Source: Microscilla marina ATCC 23134
Lineage (GTDB): Bacteria; Bacteroidota; Bacteroidia; Cytophagales; Microscillaceae
Direction: 5' to 3'
DNA length: 64,000 nucleotides
Assembly (NCBI RefSeq): GCF_000169175.1
Contig: NZ_AAWS01000008.1
Span: 124,001 to 188,000, forward strand
The notes beneath the pieces were generated by a model. That model had not been told where the DNA came from. It searched no databases and saw only the letters and a list, made by a program, of their open reading frames with translations. Made by a program: the position numbers and the translations under genes. Below are positions 5,933 through 61,314 of the stretch, piece after piece. Every line of letters begins with the position of its first letter. The stretch's first letter is position 1.

Positions 5933-7540
5933 ATGACAGAGACAGCCTCAATGCTTACTGATGAAATTCTCCAGTTTTTATCTACTCCACAAGTATTTGC
6001 CGAAAGGCCCCAAAAAGTAAGTGTTGTACAAACCCACATCTCTATAGTGTCTCTGTTAGACGAGGTGGTGTACAAGGTGAAAAAAGCGGTTGACTTTGGT
6101 TTTTTAAACTTTATGAAGTTGGAAGATCGCAAATATTACCTTGAAGAAGAGGTAAGACTCAACTCACGCCTTACAACTGACCTATACCTAGATTTGGTGC
6201 CTATTTACCGCCTTGACAACGGAACTTTGAGCTTTACGAGTGAACAATCTACTGATGTGGTGGTAGAGTATGCGTTGAAAATGAAGCGCTTGCCGCATGA
6301 GTTTTTTTTAGATGAACTGCTCAAAAAGAATACTTTTGATTGGCAAAATATTAACTTGATTGCCAATAAACTTGCCCGGTTTTATCAGCATATACCCGTA
6401 GATGCACACAAGAGTAAATGGGGGCGTACTGAGTTTTTGCGTGAGATTATAGACGAAAATTTTGAGCAAATCACCCCTTTTGTGAATAACACCATTCAGA
6501 CTATCGAGTTTAGGGTGTTGCGGGCTTATCAATATTATTTTTTAGAAAATAACAAGCAGTGGTTTCACCAACGAGTGGCAGAGGGCAAAATACTGGAGTG
6601 TCACGGAGACCTTAAGTGTGACCATATTCATGTAGAAAATCAGCAGGTAAATATTTATGATTGTATTGAGTTCAACGAGCGTTATCGTTGCATTGATGTA
6701 TTAAACGACATTGCTTTTTTGAGCATGGAGCTTGATTTTAGGCGTAAGTTTAATTTGTCTAATTATTTTGTAAATCAGGTAACCAATCAGTTAGAGACTG
6801 GGGAGTATCAGGATTTATTTGATTTTTATAAGTCGTTTCGGGCGTTTGTCAAGGGCAAAGTAGAGAGCTTTACATCTACCACTCTGGAGGTGCCCGCCAA
6901 AAAACGCCATAAATGTGCCGAGCGTGCCCGAAAGTATTTTAAGCTGGCGCTAAAGTATGCGCTTATAGGTTCAGAAGCTACCCTGGTAGTGGTATATGGT
7001 GGAGTGGCTACTGGCAAAACTACCTTGGCGCAAAAAATAGCCAAACACATGAATATCCAACATTTTAACTCTGATTTGATCAGGAAAAAAATGGCGGGTA
7101 TTCCTACTTATGAGCGTACCCGCAGCGAAGATTTGCAAAGGGTATACTCTACAGAAATGACTGAGAAAGTATACGAAACATTGATAGAGGAGGGGATCAA
7201 TTGTGCTTTTCAGGAGGGAACATCTATATTAGATGCCACATTTCGGGATATTACTAAGTTAGAGAGGTTGTTAAAAAAGGTTCGTGAGGCACAGCCTTTA
7301 AGGGTGGTATTTATTGAAGCAATTGCCCCTGATGAAGAAATTAAACAGCGTTTACGCGCCCGCGAAAATGAACCAAATGTGTCGGATGCACGCATAGAGC
7401 ATTTCGAAATGTTGAGGCAGTCACGCCATCAAATAGCCAAAATGTTGCCCAACCACCTTACCCTAAATACTGCCAACCCTTTGCAAAAAACAATGGTAAA
7501 CTTGTTTGTGCAAATGTTTGAAGCCCGTTTGTTGAATTAA
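5933..7540 (+). CDS. Aminoglycoside phosphotransferase-like / P-loop kinase fusion protein
   Basis: A 535-residue two-domain protein. The N-terminal half is an APH-type kinase fold with a CHGDLKCDHIHV catalytic loop (~223-234) and the metal-binding segment IYDCIEFNERYR. The C-terminal half (from ~345) is an AAA_33/zeta-toxin-like P-loop kinase with Walker A GGVATGKTTL (~354-363). Such fusions are common in bacteria, but their small-molecule substrate is not established and antibiotic resistance should not be assumed. There is no signal peptide or membrane segment. The gene follows a repeat-bearing gap and precedes the Rossmann protein by 109 bp on the same strand. Confidence 0.85.
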   Translation: MTETASMLTDEILQFLSTPQVFAERPQKVSVVQTHISIVSLLDEVVYKVKKAVDFGFLNFMKLEDRKYYLEEEVRLNSRLTTDLYLDLVPIYRLDNGTLSFTSEQSTDVVVEYALKMKRLPHEFFLDELLKKNTFDWQNINLIANKLARFYQHIPVDAHKSKWGRTEFLREIIDENFEQITPFVNNTIQTIEFRVLRAYQYYFLENNKQWFHQRVAEGKILECHGDLKCDHIHVENQQVNIYDCIEFNERYRCIDVLNDIAFLSMELDFRRKFNLSNYFVNQVTNQLETGEYQDLFDFYKSFRAFVKGKVESFTSTTLEVPAKKRHKCAERARKYFKLALKYALIGSEATLVVVYGGVATGKTTLAQKIAKHMNIQHFNSDLIRKKMAGIPTYERTRSEDLQRVYSTEMTEKVYETLIEEGINCAFQEGTSILDATFRDITKLERLLKKVREAQPLRVVFIEAIAPDEEIKQRLRARENEPNVSDARIEHFEMLRQSRHQIAKMLPNHLTLNTANPLQKTMVNLFVQMFEARLLN

Positions 7541-7649
7541 GTGACAGCTATAGAACATAATCTGCCTTGTAAATGTTAAACCAAGTGTTCCTGCGTTTTA
7601 TTCAGGGCGTGTTACTTTCAAACAGCATCATATTTAAACTTTTTATTTT

Positions 7650-8351
7650 ATGAATAAAATAGCCATTGTTGCCGGGGCTACTGGTCTGGTGGGCAGCGAG
7701 TTAGTGAAGTTGTTGCTACAAGACGACGATTACCAGCAAGTAAAAATAATTGGTAGAAAAAGTATTGGCATAGACCACGCAAAAATAGAGGAGTTGTTGG
7801 TGGACTTTGATCAACTAGACAATTATCAGGATTTTTTTGTGGGTGCCACCGAAGCATTTTGTTGCTTGGGTACTACCACCAAAAAAATGGGGAAGGAGGG
7901 ACTTACTAAAGTTGATTTCACCTATTGTCATGCGTTTGCTCAGCTTGCTGCCAAGGCAAATGTTGCCCAGTTTTTAATTATATCAAGCATTGGTGCTAGT
8001 GCCGACAGCCGCTACCATTATTCAAGGGTAAAAGCACGCATAGAAGATGCGGTTAAAAAACTGCCTTTCAAATCAATCCATATTTTGCGCCCTTCACTCT
8101 TGGTGGGCGACCGTAACGAGGTACGCATCTTGGAAGACCTGGGGCGTGTATTCAGTGCTGCGTTTAACTCGTTTATTCCAGCCAAATACAAAAGTATCAA
8201 AGTTAAAACGGTGGCAGTATTTATGCAAAAAATTGCCAAAAAACAATTGCCTGGACAGTTTACCTATGAGTCGAACCACATAAGAAAAATAGCAGTGAGC
8301 AAATTTGACTACGAAAAGTTTAGCGAATATACTGAGTATAAAGACTTGTAA
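7650..8351 (+). CDS. TIP30/HTATIP2-like NAD(P)-binding Rossmann protein
   Basis: A 233-residue extended-SDR-like protein with the glycine-rich dinucleotide motif GATGLVGSELV at residues 10-20. CLGTTTKKMGKEG and ISSIGASADSRYHYSRVKA (an S...Y-x-x-x-K arrangement) follow. This pattern fits the CC3/TIP30 (HTATIP2) group of NAD(P)-dependent epimerase-like proteins. Family members are annotated as oxidoreductases without firm substrates. It is cytoplasmic. Its ATG follows an A/T-rich leader 109 bp after the kinase fusion, so cotranscription is possible. Confidence 0.8.
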   Translation: MNKIAIVAGATGLVGSELVKLLLQDDDYQQVKIIGRKSIGIDHAKIEELLVDFDQLDNYQDFFVGATEAFCCLGTTTKKMGKEGLTKVDFTYCHAFAQLAAKANVAQFLIISSIGASADSRYHYSRVKARIEDAVKKLPFKSIHILRPSLLVGDRNEVRILEDLGRVFSAAFNSFIPAKYKSIKVKTVAVFMQKIAKKQLPGQFTYESNHIRKIAVSKFDYEKFSEYTEYKDL

Positions 8352-16605: not shown

Positions 16606-17274
16606 ATGAAAAAAATACGACACGCCTTGATTATGGCAGCAGGACGCGGTACCCGCATGCTACCTCTCACCAACGTAATACCCAAGCCCATGGCGCCTTA
16701 CAAAGGGTCTACGCTGATAGCTGAAGGCATCAAAAAAGTAACCCCTGCCATTGACTATTTACATATTACGGTGGGTTATAAGGGAGCAGTGCTTGCCCAG
16801 CATGTGATAGAGCAGGGGGTACATTCTGTATTTAACACTGAGGGGAAAGGCAATGCCTGGTGGATTTATAACACAATGATGGCTCATTTAAACGAGCCTG
16901 TTTTTGTGCTTACTGCAGACAATATTACAGAGCTTGATTTTGACCTACTGTCAGAAGAGTACCATAAATACAACGAGCCGGCTTGTATGGTAGTGCCAGT
17001 GTTGCCTATCGAGGGCTTAGAGGGTGATTATATACACCATACCAATAACTGTGTATACGAGCTAAACCGTCAGAAAAAGGCCAAAACCTACTGTTCGGGC
17101 ATTCAAATGCTCAACCCTTATAAGATCAATCAATTGACTGAGAAAACAGCCGATTTTTATGCCGTATGGCAGCAACTTATTGCCCAACAACAATTGTATT
17201 GTTCAGACAGTTATCCCAAAAACTGGTTTACGGTAGACACTATAGAACAGCTCAATGCCCTGAACCAGAAATGA
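16606..17274 (+). CDS. Sugar-phosphate nucleotidyltransferase (NTP_transferase)
   Basis: A 222-residue nucleotidyltransferase with the pyrophosphorylase signature ALIMAAGRGTRMLPLT followed by PKPMAPYKGSTLI. TEGKGNAWWIYNTM and LTADNITELDFD (metal-binding Asp) come next. Such enzymes couple an NTP to a sugar 1-phosphate to give an activated sugar; the nucleotide and sugar are not predictable here. It is short for the family and lacks a left-handed beta-helix, so it is a stand-alone catalytic domain. It follows the CapD-like gene on the same strand and ends just before a strong bidirectional terminator. Confidence 0.84.
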   Translation: MKKIRHALIMAAGRGTRMLPLTNVIPKPMAPYKGSTLIAEGIKKVTPAIDYLHITVGYKGAVLAQHVIEQGVHSVFNTEGKGNAWWIYNTMMAHLNEPVFVLTADNITELDFDLLSEEYHKYNEPACMVVPVLPIEGLEGDYIHHTNNCVYELNRQKKAKTYCSGIQMLNPYKINQLTEKTADFYAVWQQLIAQQQLYCSDSYPKNWFTVDTIEQLNALNQK

Positions 17275-20654: not shown

Positions 20655-21377
20655 TCAATGAAACTTTTCTTCAAAGAGCTGTTTCATGGCCTGCCAAGCT
20701 CTCCGATCGGTATCGGGTTGGTAAAACATTCCTGGTTGATTGGCGCTAGGGTTGGTAAAAGCGTGTCCGGTATGGCCAAAAGCTAAAATTTGCCAGTCTG
20801 CTTTGCGTTCAGTCAGTTCGTGTGCCAAGGCCACCGTTTGTTCAGGAGTAGCCAGTGGGTCTTCCCAACCGTGTAGTACCAACACTGCCGCTTTGATAGG
20901 GGTAGGGTGAGACATAACGGGAGCATCATATACTCCATGAAAGCTCACTACTCCCTGAAGATGAGCCCCCGAACGTGCCAGGTCAAGTACTGCTTTGCCA
21001 CCAAAGCAAAACCCAACGGCTCCTAATTGCCCGGTATCTGTCAAAGCATGTTTTTTGAGCACATCCAACGCCAACTCCATGCGTTGCAGTAGCAATGGAC
21101 GGTCATTATTTAGTTCATCCATCAAAGCTTGTGCTTCTTCCTTGACTGAGGCACGCCTGCCTTTGCCGTATAAATCTATGGCAAAACCTACATACCCCAT
21201 ACTGGCCAGTGCTACCGCTTTTTGGTTGTCAAACTCGCCTTGTCCTTTAAAAGTATGCACCACCAATATTCCAGGGCGTTTTTGCTGAGTAGCATCATCC
21301 CAATTAATGGTTCCCTCAAAAGCGTTGCCTTGAGCGTCGTGATAAGTGATAGTTTCGGTTTTTATCATTGAATGCAA
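20655..21377 (-). CDS. Dienelactone hydrolase family protein
   Basis: A 240-residue alpha/beta hydrolase of the DLH type. The nucleophile motif is GAVGFCFGG (cysteine instead of serine), with an acid region HGWEDPLATPEQ and the histidine in FGHTGHAF. The N-terminus TYHDAQGNAFEGTINW is typical of bacterial DLH-like hydrolases, which cleave esters or lactones; natural substrates are usually unknown. There is no signal peptide. It is last in a minus-strand run with the ATP-grasp and deoxyribosyltransferase-like genes (54-bp gap). That suggests cotranscription but not necessarily a shared function. ATG 21377 or the in-frame ATG nine bases on may be used. Confidence 0.85.
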   Translation of the reverse strand: MHSMIKTETITYHDAQGNAFEGTINWDDATQQKRPGILVVHTFKGQGEFDNQKAVALASMGYVGFAIDLYGKGRRASVKEEAQALMDELNNDRPLLLQRMELALDVLKKHALTDTGQLGAVGFCFGGKAVLDLARSGAHLQGVVSFHGVYDAPVMSHPTPIKAAVLVLHGWEDPLATPEQTVALAHELTERKADWQILAFGHTGHAFTNPSANQPGMFYQPDTDRRAWQAMKQLFEEKFH

Positions 21378-21431: not shown

Positions 21432-22169
21432 CTATATCGTAGCTGCTCGAATGGAAGCAAGCACTTTTTCGGGGCGGCAGTGGTTGAGTCCTGCACCCCA
21501 ACAAGAATTAAACTCTATAATGCACCAGCCTCTTGTTTTACTGTAGCCTATGTCTAGCACAAATGAGTGGGGGAGAGCGGCAGCCTCAGCAGAGTGTAAA
21601 AAATGGTGGATAAACTGCTGGGCAGTCTTAAGGTCAGTGCTGCCTTCATACAAAGCCAGGTCTTGTATTTGTTTGCCAAGCACAAAAGAGCGTACTTCTG
21701 CCACCAGGTCGTCAATCACCTCCGAGCAAATCAAAGTTTCGTTGCCTAATGCTTGTATTGCTTCTACTTCGTCTTCCAGTCGTACTACTTTAGCAGTCAG
21801 TAGTTTTGGTTTAACCGACTTTACAAATACTGGCAACTGGTCTATCGCAAAATATTCCGCGACTATTAAGTCCAACTTCCGTTTGCCCCATCGATAAGGC
21901 AGTTGAGCAACGAGTTCGTCTTGTGGCGATAGTAAAGCACGCCCCAAGACTTGAGCCAATACCAAAGCAAAAGTATCGTTACCGTAAATGCTAACGCGGG
22001 CATTGCCAGTGTTGGGAGCTTGCCAAAACTTGCCAACGTGCATTACTTTGCCTCCGTACTGTTGCCATACCAACGCCAAAGCATCCCGTTCTTTGTCTGC
22101 CTTTTCGGGGATTAGTAATACTTCGTTTGATAAGTCCATTTTCACGTGGTCAATACCCCCATTGTCCAT
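21432..22169 (-). CDS. R2K-type ATP-grasp ligase
   Basis: A 245-residue protein (235 if ATG 22139 is used) resembling the R2K clade of ATP-grasp enzymes, defined by a RAGNYA domain with two conserved lysines. Here a FVKSVKPK cluster (residues 115-122) supplies the lysines. EVIDDLVAEVRSFVLG and FVLDIGYSKTRGWCIIEFN (metal-binding acidic residues) complete the ATP-grasp fold. R2K enzymes, including eukaryotic CDC123, are proposed ATP-dependent peptide or protein ligases, and the prokaryotic families have been proposed to act in phage-host conflict. The N-terminus overlaps the upstream deoxyribosyltransferase-like gene by 20 bp, or follows it by 10 bp, so the two are coupled. The substrate is unknown. 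Confidence 0.72.
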   Translation of the reverse strand: MDNGGIDHVKMDLSNEVLLIPEKADKERDALALVWQQYGGKVMHVGKFWQAPNTGNARVSIYGNDTFALVLAQVLGRALLSPQDELVAQLPYRWGKRKLDLIVAEYFAIDQLPVFVKSVKPKLLTAKVVRLEDEVEAIQALGNETLICSEVIDDLVAEVRSFVLGKQIQDLALYEGSTDLKTAQQFIHHFLHSAEAAALPHSFVLDIGYSKTRGWCIIEFNSCWGAGLNHCRPEKVLASIRAATI

Positions 22170-22755
22170 CTACCAAAGCATCGGCAATTGCTTTTACAAA
22201 TGAATCGGCTACTAACTTAGATTTGTTCTCAGCCTTAAGTGTATGCCAGGGTACCCCGTTGACATCTGCCATTTTTTTTGCCCATTTTATGCTGTCAGCG
22301 TCTTCGGGGCCCCCTACAATAAAGCGTCGCTTATCAGGGTTTTTGATATATTCCTGTAAAAAATAACCATACTCCCAACGACTGGTAGGCCCTATGTTTG
22401 GAGCAAACACACCTGCTTTTTCCTTGGTCCAATAAGTAGGTAACCAAAAAGCTGTAATATCGCATAGGTTCAGGTATTGCCACTCCCAAGGTATTTGCTT
22501 GTCTTGAATGGCCTCCGTCTGGTTTGCCGGGTGGGCATTGTCAATGTCTGCCCAATTACCTGTTTCAGGTTCGGGCGATACTACCATCATTCCAGGGTGC
22601 AACCTTTCATCTGCCTTGAGTGCATTTATAACCGCCCGCCTCCAGCCAGTAGTCATGGAACCATTGGGCGGAGTAGGCCCTGCCAAAAATACCCCTTGTT
22701 TGGGAATGACTACCTCGTGTTTGCGTGAAAATAAAGTTCTGATGGTTTCTTTCAT
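22150..22755 (-). CDS. Nucleoside 2-deoxyribosyltransferase-like protein
   Basis: A 201-residue protein with VFLAGPTPPNGSMTTGW (residues 22-38), the N-terminal signature of nucleoside 2-deoxyribosyltransferase-like enzymes. IPWEWQYLNLCDITAFWLP (88-106) and TSRWEYGYFLQ (124-134) follow; the glutamate in the last motif is the likely nucleophile. It best fits the Nuc_deoxyri_tr2 type. Family members cleave or exchange N-glycosidic bonds in nucleosides or nucleotides. It is the first gene of a minus-strand run and is coupled to the ATP-grasp gene. The pairing suggests a two-step nucleotide or protein modification, which is inference. Confidence 0.72.
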   Translation of the reverse strand: MKETIRTLFSRKHEVVIPKQGVFLAGPTPPNGSMTTGWRRAVINALKADERLHPGMMVVSPEPETGNWADIDNAHPANQTEAIQDKQIPWEWQYLNLCDITAFWLPTYWTKEKAGVFAPNIGPTSRWEYGYFLQEYIKNPDKRRFIVGGPEDADSIKWAKKMADVNGVPWHTLKAENKSKLVADSFVKAIADALVDGQWGY

Positions 22756-22813
22756 ATCAAAATGGTTTGTGAGTGTTGGTGTTGCTTATTTATTTGATCA
22801 ATGTCTACACAAT

Positions 22814-22850
22814 AGTCCATAGCTGATTCGAGTAAATGTTCACCTTGTTA
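22814..22850 (+). repeat. Family D dispersed repeat copy
   Basis: A 37-bp element beginning AGTCCATAGCTGATTCGAGT is identical to 40188-40224 at 36 of 37 positions, 17 kb away. It lies in the gap upstream of the deoxyribosyltransferase-like gene. Confidence 0.85.
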
Positions 22851-23023
22851 AATGCTGTAAACCAGTGTTTTAAGATTGTATACTCACTTTATTTTTAAAA
22901 GTGTTTCGGTTTTATGCCTAAACACCCAATTAAATAGCTTTTAAATTCATCAATGACTGATCACCAGCAAACAACTTTGACTAAAATCACTGCGGAGTAT
23001 TGCTACAGTAACGCAGGGTTTAT

Positions 23024-37417: not shown

Positions 37418-38701
37418 ATGGATTATTTTAAGGGTATTATTGGTTTGGTGGTATTTATGTTGGTGGGCTATCTTGTTTCCAACAATCGTAAAGCCATCAA
37501 TTGGAGGCTGGTTGGTATAGGGATTACACTCCAGATCGTATTTGGGTTGTTGATCATGAAAGTGCCATTTGTGCGGGATATGTTCGATGCAATAAGTACT
37601 GGGTTTGTGCGCTTTTTAGATTTTGCATTGGACGGTTCTAAATTTCTCTTTGGTGACCTGGCAAACGATAAGTCTTCTTTTGGTTTTATATTTGCCTTTC
37701 AGGTGTTACCCACCATTATCTTTTTCTCTACCATTTCGGCTGCTCTTTATTACTTAGGCATTCTACAAAAAATAGTATACGCCATCGCTTATGTTATGTC
37801 AAAGGCCATGGGTTTGTCTGGACCTGAGAGTCTGTCTGCCGCAGGAAATATTTTTTTAGGGCAAACCGAAGCCCCTCTGTTAGTAAAGCCTTTTATTAAA
37901 AATATGACCAAGTCGGAGCTGATGTGCCTCATGACAGGTGGTATGGCTACCATTGCCGGAGCCATTCTGGCTGCTGCAGTAGGCGTATTAGGGGGTGCCG
38001 ATCCGGTGGCTAAAGCCAAGTTTGCTTCGCATTTGCTCAGTGCTTCTATTATGAGTGCCCCTGCTGCCATTGTGATGGCAAAAATTATGATTCCAGAAAC
38101 CAAGGATGTAAACAAGAGTTTAGAACTGTCTAAAGAATCGCTAGGGGTAAACCTGATAGACGCGATGGCGATTGGGGCAGGTGATGGATTGAAACTAGCC
38201 TTGAATGTAGGTGGTATGCTGTTGGCATTTATTGCTGTAATTGCGATGCTCAATGCTGGATTGGTTTATATAGGCGATGTGTTGGATGTGAACCAAATTA
38301 TCAGGGTACAAACAGGTGGGGCTTTCAAGGCTCTTTCTATGGAGTATTTGCTGGGGCAAATTAGCCGACCTTTTGCCTACTTGATGGGGGTAGAGTGGAA
38401 AGATACCTTACTTGTGGGAAGTTTGATTGGACAAAAAACGGCGGTCAATGAGTTTGTCGCTTACCTTGACTTATCGCGTATGATTAAGGAAGGTTCTTTG
38501 AGTGAAAAGTCTATTTTGGTATCTACCTACGCCCTTTGTGGTTTTTCTAACTTTAGCTCTATTGCCATTCAGATTGGGGGAATTAGTGGAATGGCGCCTA
38601 ACCAACAAGGGAATTTGTCTAAGTTGGGGCTGCGTGCTTTATTGGGTGCTACTCTGGCTTGTTTTATGACTGCCACCATTGCCGGAGCCATTTCGGGATA
38701 G
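37418..38701 (+). CDS. nupC: NupC-family concentrative nucleoside transporter
   Basis: A 427-residue inner-membrane transporter with about ten hydrophobic helices. Family motifs include GLSGPESLSAAGNIFLGQTEAPLL (substrate and Na/H site region), MTGGMATIAGAILAAAVG and QKTAVNEFVAYLDL, with STYALCGFSNFSSIAIQIGG near the end. It takes up nucleosides using the ion gradient. It is single on its strand, with a terminator-like hairpin downstream. The symbol is a family-level assignment; specificity for purine or pyrimidine nucleosides is not predictable. Confidence 0.92.
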   Translation: MDYFKGIIGLVVFMLVGYLVSNNRKAINWRLVGIGITLQIVFGLLIMKVPFVRDMFDAISTGFVRFLDFALDGSKFLFGDLANDKSSFGFIFAFQVLPTIIFFSTISAALYYLGILQKIVYAIAYVMSKAMGLSGPESLSAAGNIFLGQTEAPLLVKPFIKNMTKSELMCLMTGGMATIAGAILAAAVGVLGGADPVAKAKFASHLLSASIMSAPAAIVMAKIMIPETKDVNKSLELSKESLGVNLIDAMAIGAGDGLKLALNVGGMLLAFIAVIAMLNAGLVYIGDVLDVNQIIRVQTGGAFKALSMEYLLGQISRPFAYLMGVEWKDTLLVGSLIGQKTAVNEFVAYLDLSRMIKEGSLSEKSILVSTYALCGFSNFSSIAIQIGGISGMAPNQQGNLSKLGLRALLGATLACFMTATIAGAISG

Positions 38702-58185: not shown

Positions 58186-61100
58186 ATGAAATATTTAAGT
58201 TTATTGTTTGCACTCATGCTGACTACCCCTGGCTTGTTTGCCCAACTAGACGTGAACGAACGCATACATTTGGCCGATTCACTGTTTGATGATCGGGGTG
58301 ACTATAGCCAGGCGTTGGATTATTACTACCCATTGATTGACGATTTTGCCCGAAAGGGCGACCGCAAGCGCCACGTTATTTACCAAATCAAGGTGATACA
58401 ATGTCATTATTTATTATCGAAGTATGACACAGCTTTAAAAATTGCCCATACACTACTCAAAAATTTGCCTAAAAGCCTGCCACGCAAATTTCTTTACGAA
58501 GGAGAAGTTAAAACCCTGATGGGAGAAATTTATTACAAAAAAGGAGAATATGAAGTAGCAAAAAAAAGCTTGCACCAAGCCTGGAAAGTGCTTAAGTATG
58601 AATATGGAGCCGAAGTGCAGCTTTCTACAGTATATACAGTCATGGGGTTTGTACACGAGGCATTAGAAGAGTTTGACCTTGCCTTTAGGTATTACAAAAA
58701 AGCGTTGAAGTTAAGAAAACGGGTTTTGGGCAAATACAACCAAGCCACTGCATCGTCTTATGCCGACCTTGCCAACCTTTACTTTGCTCAAGGTGACTAT
58801 ATAGTGTCTATTGGCTACGACAAAAAAGCCTTGGGCATCAAAAAACAGTTGTACGGGGCACATCACCCCGAAATAGCCTTGTCTTACAACAATATGGCAA
58901 GTACTTATAATACTTGGGGCAACTACGACAAGGCGCTAAAATACCACCAGAAAGCCCTTGCCATCCGCGAAAAAGTATTTGGGCAATGGCATTTAGACGT
59001 GGGGCAGTCATACCATAACATTGGCTATACCTATATGCAAAAAGGCGCTTACAATCTTGCCCTGGAGTATTACCAACGTTATGAAACTACTTTACAAAAA
59101 CTGACTGGCAAACACCATCCGCACCTGAGCTCAATATATACTAACATAGGTACGGTGTATGTAAAAAAACGTCAATATGAAAAGGCGCTCGATTATTTTG
59201 AGAAAAACCTTTGGTTGTTGCGCAGTGCTTATGCCCGGCAAAACAGCCATTTTGCCGAGGCTTACCATAACTTTGCCTACGTGTATCGCCTCAAAAAAGA
59301 CTACCAACTGGCATTGACTTACTCTCAGAAAACCCTGGACATTGTACAACAGGTGTTTGGCAAACCTCACCTGTATGCCGCACGTGCTTTTTTGAACATG
59401 GGCAGGGTATACGCCCAGCTGCAAAAACCAACACTTGCCAGCCAATATTTTAGCAAAGCAATTTATACCCTAAAGCAAGTGTTTGGTCATAAATCGTCTT
59501 TGCTATCGGTAACCGCCCACGAACTGGGCAAGCTATACCTAAGCCAACAAAACTACACCAAGGCATTGGCCTATTTGCACAAAGCCTTGGTGTATGGGGT
59601 ACCTCGTTTCAACAAAGTCCTTGCGCCAAAGTCGTTGCCTGCGCTCAAGGACTGCCCTTTAGATCCTTTTCTGGTAAAAATACTTGCCACAAAAGCACAG
59701 TGTTTTTATCAAATGTATGAGGCAAAGGCAAACCCTCTATACCTCAATCAATCTATTGTGACATACGAGTTGGGCTATGCCCTGCTCAAAAAAATAGGCA
59801 ACTCCTTCTTAAAAACAGAAGACCGGATGAATTTTAACGAAACCGTTATTGCCATAAGAGACGGAGCACTGAAGGCATACAGGCAAAAATACCAGGTGAC
59901 CCAGCAACCCAGGTTTTTGCGCAAAATGTTTGAGTGCAGCGAGCAGTTTAAGGCAAGTTCGTTACAAAGTGCCCTCAACTACCAAAAAGCCCTGAAGGCA
60001 GCCAATATTCCTCCTGTTTACATTATCCAAGAGCAAGGCCTGAGAATGGATATTAACTATTGGACCAAGAAGGTGTCAAACGACCCGGCAAAGGCAGCCC
60101 AACACCAAGACTCATTGTTTGAGTATAACCGAAGGTATGAGGAGCTCATTGCCGCCATTGAAACCAACTACCCAGCGTATGTGGCACACAAGTACAAATA
60201 TAAAATAGTCCAACTCGACGAAATTCAGCAAAGGCTTGCCCCTCAAAGCGTGTTACTGGAGTATAGCCTGGGCGAAAAGAGCAGTTATTTATTTATCATT
60301 ACTGCTACTCAGGTAGAGGTGGTGAGTTTGGCAGGCCGAAGACAACTTCAGCCTTTGCTCAATTCGTATTATAGTGCCCTTGAAAGTGAAGAACAATTGC
60401 CAAAATTTGCTCAGGCAAGCCATCGTTTGTATCGGGCAATGCTTCAGCCAGCCGAGGCGTATATCAAAGACAAAAAACGGTTAATTGTGATTGCTCCTTC
60501 GCTCGAAAGCATACCTTTTGAGGCCATCATTAGCCAACCACCCTCTGCCCAACAACTTAAGCTACAAAAGTTTAGCCTGCTCGACTATTTGGTCAGGCAA
60601 TACCAAATCAGTTACCATTACTCTGCTACCCTATGGTACCGCAGCCTTGGGCAAACCAAAGCCAAGCCCCTTAGTTTACTTGCTTTTGCTCCCTTTAGCA
60701 CTGGCAAGCCTCAAGTGCTGAGTAACCAAACCCGGAAATTATCCGACTCTTTGCCCGAAACAGGGATAGAGGTAAGGACTATTTTTGAAATGTTTAAACA
60801 CCAAAAACTCAAAGCCAAGGCTTACCTTGCGGCTAGTGCCACCAAATTGCGTTTTATGCAACAATCCAATGCCTACAGTATTATACACCTGGCCAGCCAT
60901 AGCGAAGCCAACACCCGTTATGCTCACCTGGGCAAAGTAAGGTTTGCGCCCCATCCGTTAGATACTGGCAACGCTTCTGGCATTTTGTACTCCAGCGAAG
61001 TCTACAATCTAAAGCTCAATCCCGACTTGTTGGTGTTAAGCAGTTGTGAGTCGGGGGTAGGCAGGTTGGCAAAAGGAGAGGGGGTGCTTTCTTTGGCGCG

Positions 61101-61314
61101 TGGTTTTTTGTATGCCGGAGCCCGCAATATCATATTTTCTTTGTGGGAGGTAAACGATGCCTATACCCGCCAATTGATGGTGGCTTTTTATAAAGCACTT
61201 CTGGCGGGCAAAAGTTACCGTGCTGCCTTACAAGCCGCCCAGCAAACCCGCCTCAACACCAATCAGTATTTGCACCCCAGGCATTGGGCGGGCTTTGTCA
61301 TGATCGGAGAGTAA
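58186..61314 (+). CDS. Exported TPR-CHAT (caspase-like) protease
   Basis: A 1042-residue protein. A signal peptide (MKYLSLLFALMLTTPGLFAQ) is followed by an array of about ten tetratricopeptide repeats of the long 42-residue type (~60-470, e.g. SYNNMASTYNTWGNYDKAL), a helical linker (~480-680) and a C-terminal CHAT domain (~690-1042). The caspase-like dyad is visible: histidine in HLASHSEA (~905) and cysteine in LSSCESGVG (~953), with GARNIIFSLWEVND typical of CHAT. CHAT proteases cleave protein partners and occur in conflict and death systems. Here the signal peptide points to a periplasmic or surface role. It is convergent with the ROCO gene, leaving 12 bp. Confidence 0.9.
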   Translation: MKYLSLLFALMLTTPGLFAQLDVNERIHLADSLFDDRGDYSQALDYYYPLIDDFARKGDRKRHVIYQIKVIQCHYLLSKYDTALKIAHTLLKNLPKSLPRKFLYEGEVKTLMGEIYYKKGEYEVAKKSLHQAWKVLKYEYGAEVQLSTVYTVMGFVHEALEEFDLAFRYYKKALKLRKRVLGKYNQATASSYADLANLYFAQGDYIVSIGYDKKALGIKKQLYGAHHPEIALSYNNMASTYNTWGNYDKALKYHQKALAIREKVFGQWHLDVGQSYHNIGYTYMQKGAYNLALEYYQRYETTLQKLTGKHHPHLSSIYTNIGTVYVKKRQYEKALDYFEKNLWLLRSAYARQNSHFAEAYHNFAYVYRLKKDYQLALTYSQKTLDIVQQVFGKPHLYAARAFLNMGRVYAQLQKPTLASQYFSKAIYTLKQVFGHKSSLLSVTAHELGKLYLSQQNYTKALAYLHKALVYGVPRFNKVLAPKSLPALKDCPLDPFLVKILATKAQCFYQMYEAKANPLYLNQSIVTYELGYALLKKIGNSFLKTEDRMNFNETVIAIRDGALKAYRQKYQVTQQPRFLRKMFECSEQFKASSLQSALNYQKALKAANIPPVYIIQEQGLRMDINYWTKKVSNDPAKAAQHQDSLFEYNRRYEELIAAIETNYPAYVAHKYKYKIVQLDEIQQRLAPQSVLLEYSLGEKSSYLFIITATQVEVVSLAGRRQLQPLLNSYYSALESEEQLPKFAQASHRLYRAMLQPAEAYIKDKKRLIVIAPSLESIPFEAIISQPPSAQQLKLQKFSLLDYLVRQYQISYHYSATLWYRSLGQTKAKPLSLLAFAPFSTGKPQVLSNQTRKLSDSLPETGIEVRTIFEMFKHQKLKAKAYLAASATKLRFMQQSNAYSIIHLASHSEANTRYAHLGKVRFAPHPLDTGNASGILYSSEVYNLKLNPDLLVLSSCESGVGRLAKGEGVLSLARGFLYAGARNIIFSLWEVNDAYTRQLMVAFYKALLAGKSYRAALQAAQQTRLNTNQYLHPRHWAGFVMIGE

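Follow-up and report, generated by a model that had tools for sequence, protein, structure and literature searches.

The 64,000-nucleotide stretch of the Microscilla marina ATCC 23134 genome analyzed here (contig NZ_AAWS01000008.1, positions 124,001 to 188,000; hereafter the window) contains two closely spaced genes, one of which encodes a nucleoside 2-deoxyribosyltransferase-like (NDT-like) protein and the other an ATP-grasp protein of the R2K clade. Do these two genes form a conserved functional system? A preliminary description proposed that they might, with a glycosidic-bond enzyme and an ATP-dependent ligase acting in phage-host conflict or in the making or removal of a nucleotide-based modification, and with the downstream gene of the dienelactone hydrolase (DLH) family as a potential third component. 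The results point elsewhere. The pair is seen solely in two Microscilla genomes, the whole region of which is syntenic, and NDT orthologs are located nearer to NADAR and ADP-ribosylglycohydrolase (ARG) genes than expected by chance. The reading that we favor, tentatively and with somewhat less than even confidence, is that the two genes make up a short transcription unit confined to the genus, in which the NDT-like protein acts on N-ribosyl bonds in the recycling of nicotinamide adenine dinucleotide (NAD)/ADP-ribose or nucleosides, and the R2K protein is a co-expressed ligase.

Phyletic distribution of the gene pair

Among 395 Bacteroidota genomes sampled (E 0.001), the PF15891 family (Nuc_deoxyri_tr2) was detected in 30 genomes and PF18299 (R2K_2) in 13; the two are adjacent only in the genome of M. 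marina itself, and two other genomes encode both families on different contigs. Searches with the proteins in 296 genomes (E 1e-5) identified NDT in one genome and R2K in two, the genome of M. marina being included in both counts. NDT is present in two of the 15 genomes of the family, both from the genus Microscilla; a PF14243 (R2K_3) match is found in four of the 13 NDT-holding genomes, including the sister species (the record 'uncultured Microscilla sp.'), and NDT in two of the seven genomes with R2K genes, on other contigs. The gene order in the sister species is the same over the whole compared region, from a sugar-nucleotide-type gene at position 16606 to genes beyond 31000.

The individual loci (denoted by L numbers) show the same separation. 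No R2K gene adjoins NDT in any of the 20 loci of non-Microscilla NDT orthologs (L055, L058-L069 and L109-L115, with flanks limited to 6 kb; L116 and L117 extend L065 and L066, respectively, and each such pair counts as one locus, and a further ortholog, L124, on 3.6 kb, was left out of the context count). Reciprocally, no NDT gene was found within 6 kb in 19 other R2K loci. This set includes eight of the nine above-cut-off PF18299 places of the 395-genome scan (the window omitted, as were six below-cut-off places), nine of the 10 PF14243 places in NDT genomes (the sister pair omitted) and two close relatives from a search of 193 genomes; two of the 19, L078 and L082, are short fragments. The adjacency was not found in phage and plasmid records and viral contigs either. 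The survey thus came out negative for the conserved NDT-R2K adjacency on which, by its own account, the preliminary description depended. The same applies to the DLH gene, which occupies the same place in the two Microscilla genomes only and the seed of which matched none of the open reading frames (ORFs) lying up to 6 kb from NDT in the 20 loci.

Family, fold and conserved residues of the NDT-like protein

The NDT-like protein matches PF15891 with 32.8 bits, barely above the cut-off of 30; NCBIfam and PHROGs added no name, and a close ortholog is annotated merely as 'nucleoside 2-deoxyribosyltransferase domain-containing protein'. A structure model built from 17 aligned sequences is of good quality (mean predicted local distance difference test score, pLDDT, 87.6). 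Its best solved match is 4mcj (BDI_0649; Z 14.4, root mean square deviation 3.1, 149 aligned residues), a putative nucleoside deoxyribosyltransferase by name, followed by YtoQ (Z 10.5), TIR domains and the CMP N-glycosidase MilB (9.5), with Ras-type GTPases at similar Z; Foldseek gives E 6e-6. A phmmer search of the PDB with the single NDT-like or R2K protein yielded no match. The family score and the NDT-type fold bear out the earlier assignment to the nucleoside 2-deoxyribosyltransferase-like family, and both motifs on which it was based are present (Table 1).

The alignment consists of 14 Bacteroidota long forms, including the window protein, and three distant homologs, with identity to the window protein of 57-97% for the 13 other long forms and 26-29% for the distant homologs. 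We take the FLAGPTP motif to be the nucleotide-contacting loop after strand 1, and Glu128 in the second motif is presumably the catalytic nucleophile. Thus, the window protein shares the family score, the fold and an ELG-like glutamate with proteins of the Nuc_deoxyri_tr2 / NDT-DrHyd fold, such as 4mcj, YtoQ and MilB. It differs from canonical Nuc_deoxyri_tr2 proteins in its length (201 aa, in contrast to 151-167 aa in four canonical forms) and its borderline score, and the Bacteroidota long forms comprise a fully supported separate branch of the NDT tree. A canonical short Nuc_deoxyri_tr2 protein is encoded elsewhere in the M. marina genome (contig C37; L084, 3643-4110).

Genomic context of the NDT-like genes

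Genes for NAD salvage or ADP-ribose metabolism are present within 6 kb of NDT in seven of the 20 loci. In five of these, several such genes cluster together: NAMPT, ARG, NDT, canonical NDT2, ARG and NADAR (L064); NrtR, phosphoribosyl pyrophosphate (PRPP) synthase, NAMPT, NDT, NDT2 and NADAR (L066/L117); NaPRT, PRPP synthase, NAD synthase, NDT and NDT2 (L068); NrtR, PRPP synthase, NADAR, NDT, PARG, ARG and macro (L069); and PRPP synthase, NDT, ARG, NADAR and NDT2 (L111). The NAPRT/NAMPT, ARG, NADAR, NrtR, PRPP synthase, NAD synthase, PARG, nucleoside hydrolase, PurA and NUDIX assignments were checked with Pfam on example proteins, other loci were labeled by BLAST to these examples, and the macro label comes from sequence reading alone.

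This proximity exceeds the chance expectation. Across the 20 NDT genomes, both Microscilla included (148 Mb, with 30 NADAR and 77 ARG matches), NADAR is located within 6 kb of NDT in four (G415, G417, G420 and G577) against 0.06 matches expected (Poisson ~4e-7), and ARG also in four (G415, G416, G420 and G577) against 0.13 expected (Poisson ~1e-5); these Poisson values overstate the certainty because the genomes are partly related. In G412, NADAR lies 6.0 kb from NDT, just beyond the limit, and was not counted. As a separate observation, the two Microscilla genomes (G000 and G421) contain 10 and 11 ARG matches, compared with at most seven in the other 18 genomes.

Similar neighbors are found next to distant homologs. 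In phage G gp334 and other proteins, the NDT-like domain is fused to a C-terminal domain; the same fusion is present in five of the seven distant bacterial loci and in five of the 14 viral loci, some of these from phage or candidate phyla (each set of five includes one duplicate pair, L071/L072 and L132/L133, respectively). A profile of the NDT alignment, the C-terminal part of which is this domain, matches structures of ADP-ribose pyrophosphatase and NUDIX proteins (best E 0.0016). The fetched flanks of the bacterial set (L073, L075 and L076) include NadD-like, NaPRT, NadE, NrtR and ARG genes, and those of the viral set include NAMPT (L129), PARG (L134), NAD synthase, NadD-like and NaPRT (L139), and ARG (L140). 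The label 'NadD-like' denotes a match to the general cytidylyltransferase-like family of Pfam, or a BLAST match to such a protein.

Some NDT orthologs thus reside in NAD-salvage/ADP-ribose islands with NrtR, NAMPT, NADAR, ARG or PARG genes, and the window contains no such gene. In PMC9503650, ARG-centered host systems that include an NrtR-like Nudix regulator, ARG, NADAR and Macro are predicted to counter viral ADP-ribosylation, and L064, L066 and L069 between them hold the genes of these systems. Section 3.8 of that paper, where these systems are described, names no NDT, NAMPT or PRPP synthase gene. A literature search, mostly outside subscription literature, found no link between NDT and NAD named in the titles, abstract openings or text passages covered.

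If the favored recycling role is correct, the NDT-like protein would cleave or transfer an N-ribosyl bond via Glu128. Its substrate would be a nicotinamide- or purine-ribosyl compound, either a breakdown product of NAD/ADP-ribose or a nucleoside, and the ribose and base would be returned to PRPP, NAD or purine salvage. For its part, the R2K protein would catalyze the ATP-dependent formation of an amide bond with some acceptor, as proposed for its clade, and the two proteins could be co-expressed in Microscilla without any need for a common substrate. We infer the role of the NDT-like protein from its fold, the conserved glutamate and the neighborhoods of its relatives; the catalytic activity, the substrate class and the independence of the two activities are likewise predictions. 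Of the glycosidic-bond enzyme envisaged in the preliminary description, the nucleotide-centered role is retained, directed toward NAD/ADP-ribose or nucleoside recycling.

Several observations weigh against this interpretation. Nine of the 20 NDT loci contain none of the NAD, ADP-ribose or nucleoside genes sought, and the same seeds recovered no such gene among window ORFs of at least 80 aa over the whole 64 kb. Among the seven positive loci, L065/L116 contains a diverged ARG alone, and in L115, where NAD synthase is located beside NDT, the latter is only a fragment (91 residues matched). Compared to the R2K loci, the enrichment is weak for any NAD gene (7/20 NDT loci vs 2/19 R2K loci, p = 0.07) and modest for at least two kinds of NAD gene (5/20 vs 0/19, p = 0.03). 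Several loci are contigs of metagenome-assembled genomes or come from related lineages, and the seed proteins were drawn from these same loci. In the three fusion proteins compared with Pfam, the C-terminal domain did not match NUDIX. In the NDT tree, the other 19 long forms, the NAD-linked ones included, group in a clade (support 82/86) to which the two Microscilla sequences do not belong; the role proposed for the window protein is therefore extrapolated by homology and is not bracketed by proteins with that context. Finally, one locus does not fit the separation of NDT and R2K: L109 has a different R2K gene, of the R2K_3 type, at a distance of 4.4 kb from NDT and in the same orientation, with genes for lipoprotein-like or unknown proteins between the two. 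We treat this proximity as due to chance.

A rather unlikely alternative is that the NDT-like protein is an ordinary enzyme of nucleoside or 2-deoxynucleoside salvage, a true transferase or a nucleosidase, to which the R2K protein is unrelated. This possibility is consistent with the name of the nearest structure, 4mcj, and with the context in four of the 20 loci (L067 and L112-L114), where an adenylosuccinate-synthetase-like (PurA-like) gene precedes NDT and a nucleoside hydrolase gene follows it. In L112-L114, from three related genomes, a NUDIX gene comes after the hydrolase; in L067, the contig ends inside the hydrolase gene. One of these four genomes is recorded as uncultured Lewinella. 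A conserved protein of 307-312 aa, the L112 copy of which has no Pfam match, is encoded before this row of genes. Against ordinary salvage, NAD/ADP-ribose genes occur at more loci than this gene order (seven of 20), and some of the distant homologs adjoin NaPRT, NAD synthase and NadD-like genes.

The R2K ATP-grasp protein and its relatives

The R2K protein matches both PF18299 (85.1 bits, cut-off 26.2) and PF14243 (54.3 bits, cut-off 26.3), and in PHROGs it belongs to a family of unknown function. We assume that the numbers of the Pfam R2K families may differ from the numbering in the paper that describes the clade. The placement of the window protein therefore rests on its ExN motif, which is the standard form, as opposed to the ExGD of R2K.3 in that paper (Burroughs 2015, PMC4431377). 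The positions listed there as catalytic for the clade correspond to K107, K112, E148, R150, D196, E209 and N211 of the window protein, so that the lysine pair and the ExR, D and ExN motifs are all shared. The lysines of FVKSVKPK are invariant in the four closer R2K sequences and not in nine more divergent ones. With both family scores over the cut-off and the two lysines in place, the R2K assignment of the preliminary description holds, and the predicted active sites of both the NDT-like and the R2K protein are intact. M. marina is listed among the aligned species in PMC4431377, so an R2K protein of this organism, not necessarily the present one, is already in print. The neighbor of the window gene is NDT-like, unlike the ARG, GNAT or second R2K genes that accompany members of the clade in PMC4431377. 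R2K ligases have also been noted in some jumbo phages (PMC7824862).

The nearest R2K proteins found outside Microscilla, with 44-45% identity, are encoded in Xanthocytophaga flavus and two other genomes of its order (four of 193 genomes, the sister species counted). In two of these three, the R2K gene adjoins a glyoxalase-like gene, with a nitrilase-type gene one further (Pfam on L108); the third locus has neither a glyoxalase-like nor a nitrilase-type gene.

More distant R2K genes are found among RNA-repair genes. An R2K_2-type gene occurs with RtcB and two RlaP genes in L051 (Bacteroidota; 7500-8231 and neighbors), another with an AAA_33 protein and Thg1 in L126 (5896-7912; a contig from a viral collection), and an R2K_3-type gene lies near Rnl2 in L080. 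A 585-aa neighbor of R2K in L051, considered as TROVE-like, was dropped as it belongs to no Pfam family. In L080 (7851-9798) and L081 (7213-9659), an R2K_3-type gene adjoins a synapsin-like ATP-grasp gene (Pfam on L080, BLAST on L081), which is possibly a pair of ligases in these two Bacteroidota genomes.

These RNA-repair contexts raise the possibility of a joint ADP-ribose/RNA-repair module, in which NDT would act on a ribosyl adduct and R2K would add an amino-acyl group to the same product or protect the product with one. RlaP genes near viral NDT homologs in two of the 14 loci (identified with Pfam in L128 and with BLAST in L138) are compatible with such a module, as are the R2K.2-ARG-R2K.3 operons of some firmicutes reported in PMC4431377. 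We nevertheless regard it as improbable given that NDT and R2K were seen to share an operon solely in Microscilla, that the R2K proteins of L051 and L126 are merely 28-29% identical to that of the window, and that RtcB, RlaP and Rnl2 seeds had no match in the window. Its smallest version appears slightly less probable still; here, NDT would open a ribosyl N-glycosidic bond in a product derived from NAD or from damaged RNA, and an amino-acyl cap would then be added to that product by R2K. If true, activities that elsewhere occur apart, in NAD/ADP-ribose islands and RNA-repair operons, would be united in one Microscilla operon.

That the R2K protein is an ATP-driven assembly chaperone and not a ligase, as argued for its eukaryotic relative CDC123, is about as improbable as the joint module in general; this option is compatible with the other interpretations. 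A profile of R2K relatives has Cdc123 as its best PDB matches, at a sub-significant level (E 0.034); the structure model of the R2K protein, from three sequences, is poor (mean pLDDT 40.2). To our knowledge, R2K has no bacterial partner complex, which counts against a chaperone role. In PMC12860950, CDC123 is described as having ATPase activity and as a chaperone in the promotion of eIF2 assembly, whereas PMC4431377 predicts peptide or amide ligase activity throughout the clade.

Gene layout, selection and the proposed conflict role

Table 1. Location of the genes and predicted functional motifs in the window
Feature	Positions	Strand	Description	Basis
NDT-like gene	22150..22755	-	201 aa, long-form Nuc_deoxyri_tr2 (PF15891)	Pfam, fold, orthologs
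R2K-clade ATP-grasp gene	21432..22139	-	235 aa from ATG 22139; alternative start GTG 22145	Pfam
DLH-family gene	20655..21368	-	ATG 21368; longest ORF from TTG 21377	Pfam
Intergenic space upstream of the NDT-R2K pair	22756..23023	none
FLAGPTP motif, NDT-like residues 23-29	22669..22689	-	F23, L24, G26, T28 invariant in 17 aligned sequences
TSRWEYG motif, NDT-like residues 124-130	22366..22386	-	Glu128 invariant, aligned with the canonical ELG glutamate
FVKSVKPK motif, R2K residues 105-112 (from ATG 22139)	21804..21827	-	Predicted catalytic K107, loop K112
ExR motif, R2K E148, R150	21690..21698	-	Invariant in nine divergent R2K sequences
D196 of the ATP-grasp module	21552..21554	-	Invariant in four closer sequences
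ExN motif, R2K E209, N211	21507..21515	-	Both invariant in four closer sequences; E209 also in nine divergent

The longest ORF of R2K starts at 22169 and overlaps the NDT stop codon. The sister species has a 1-nt difference just past the NDT stop, and there the upstream R2K ATG meets a stop after eight codons; the starts common to both Microscilla species are GTG 22145 and ATG 22139. Because the upstream start is unusable in the sister species, the genes are best considered non-overlapping and the overlap an artifact of ORF calling. The two genes had been described as overlapping or nearly touching, of which the near-contact stands: the NDT stop and the R2K ATG are 10 nt apart in the window, and in the sister species the distance is 9 nt. 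The R2K gene is followed after 63 nt by the ATG (21368) of the DLH gene, the product of which matches PF01738 with 134 bits. No terminator-like site was found in this 63-nt gap, and neither a recognizable promoter nor a Bacteroidota-type motif was found in the space upstream of the pair (Table 1), the promoter and terminator scans being at chance level (5 vs 4.6 expected and 2 vs 3.5). NDT and R2K are probably co-transcribed in Microscilla. DLH is possibly a third gene of the transcription unit, with no evidence of a function shared with the pair.

Between the window and the sister species, the ratio of nonsynonymous to synonymous substitution rates (dN/dS) is 0.03 for NDT, 0.18 for R2K and 0.05 for DLH, and 0.00-0.07 for four neighboring genes. 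Such purifying selection suggests that the pair and DLH are real genes, with NDT under stronger constraint than R2K, which evolves faster than all six neighboring genes compared.

A search of PADLOC-DB (E 0.01) gave no match to NDT, R2K or DLH, so the defense-island interpretation was rejected; for the eight window proteins compared, PADLOC matches were limited to two TPR proteins and a questionable BrxA-like match to the AraC regulator. The two-component conflict or modification system of the preliminary description, with NDT and R2K together producing or removing a modification based on a nucleotide, is accordingly left unsupported and highly unlikely: the tight spacing in both Microscilla species, the conflict role proposed for the clade in PMC4431377 and the elevated dN/dS of R2K speak for it, and against it stand an adjacency that is not conserved, weak co-occurrence, the empty PADLOC result and a dN/dS that, even for R2K, is far below 1.

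Other genes in the window

A Na+-dependent nucleoside transporter family gene (37418-38701) is located about 15 kb from the pair. The window also encodes a 1042-aa protein in which TPR repeats precede a CHAT protease domain (58186-61314), and a 535-aa protein, the C-terminal part of which contains a zeta-toxin/AAA_33-like kinase domain (5933-7540).

Implications

A tempting gene pair such as this one may be a lineage-specific neighborhood and not a conserved system. A possible connection between the long form of NDT and the recycling of NAD/ADP-ribose or nucleosides is a modest new lead: the repeated location of NDT genes beside enzymes of NAD salvage and ADP-ribose removal would point to a specific substrate class for a branch of the family for which we found no reported function.

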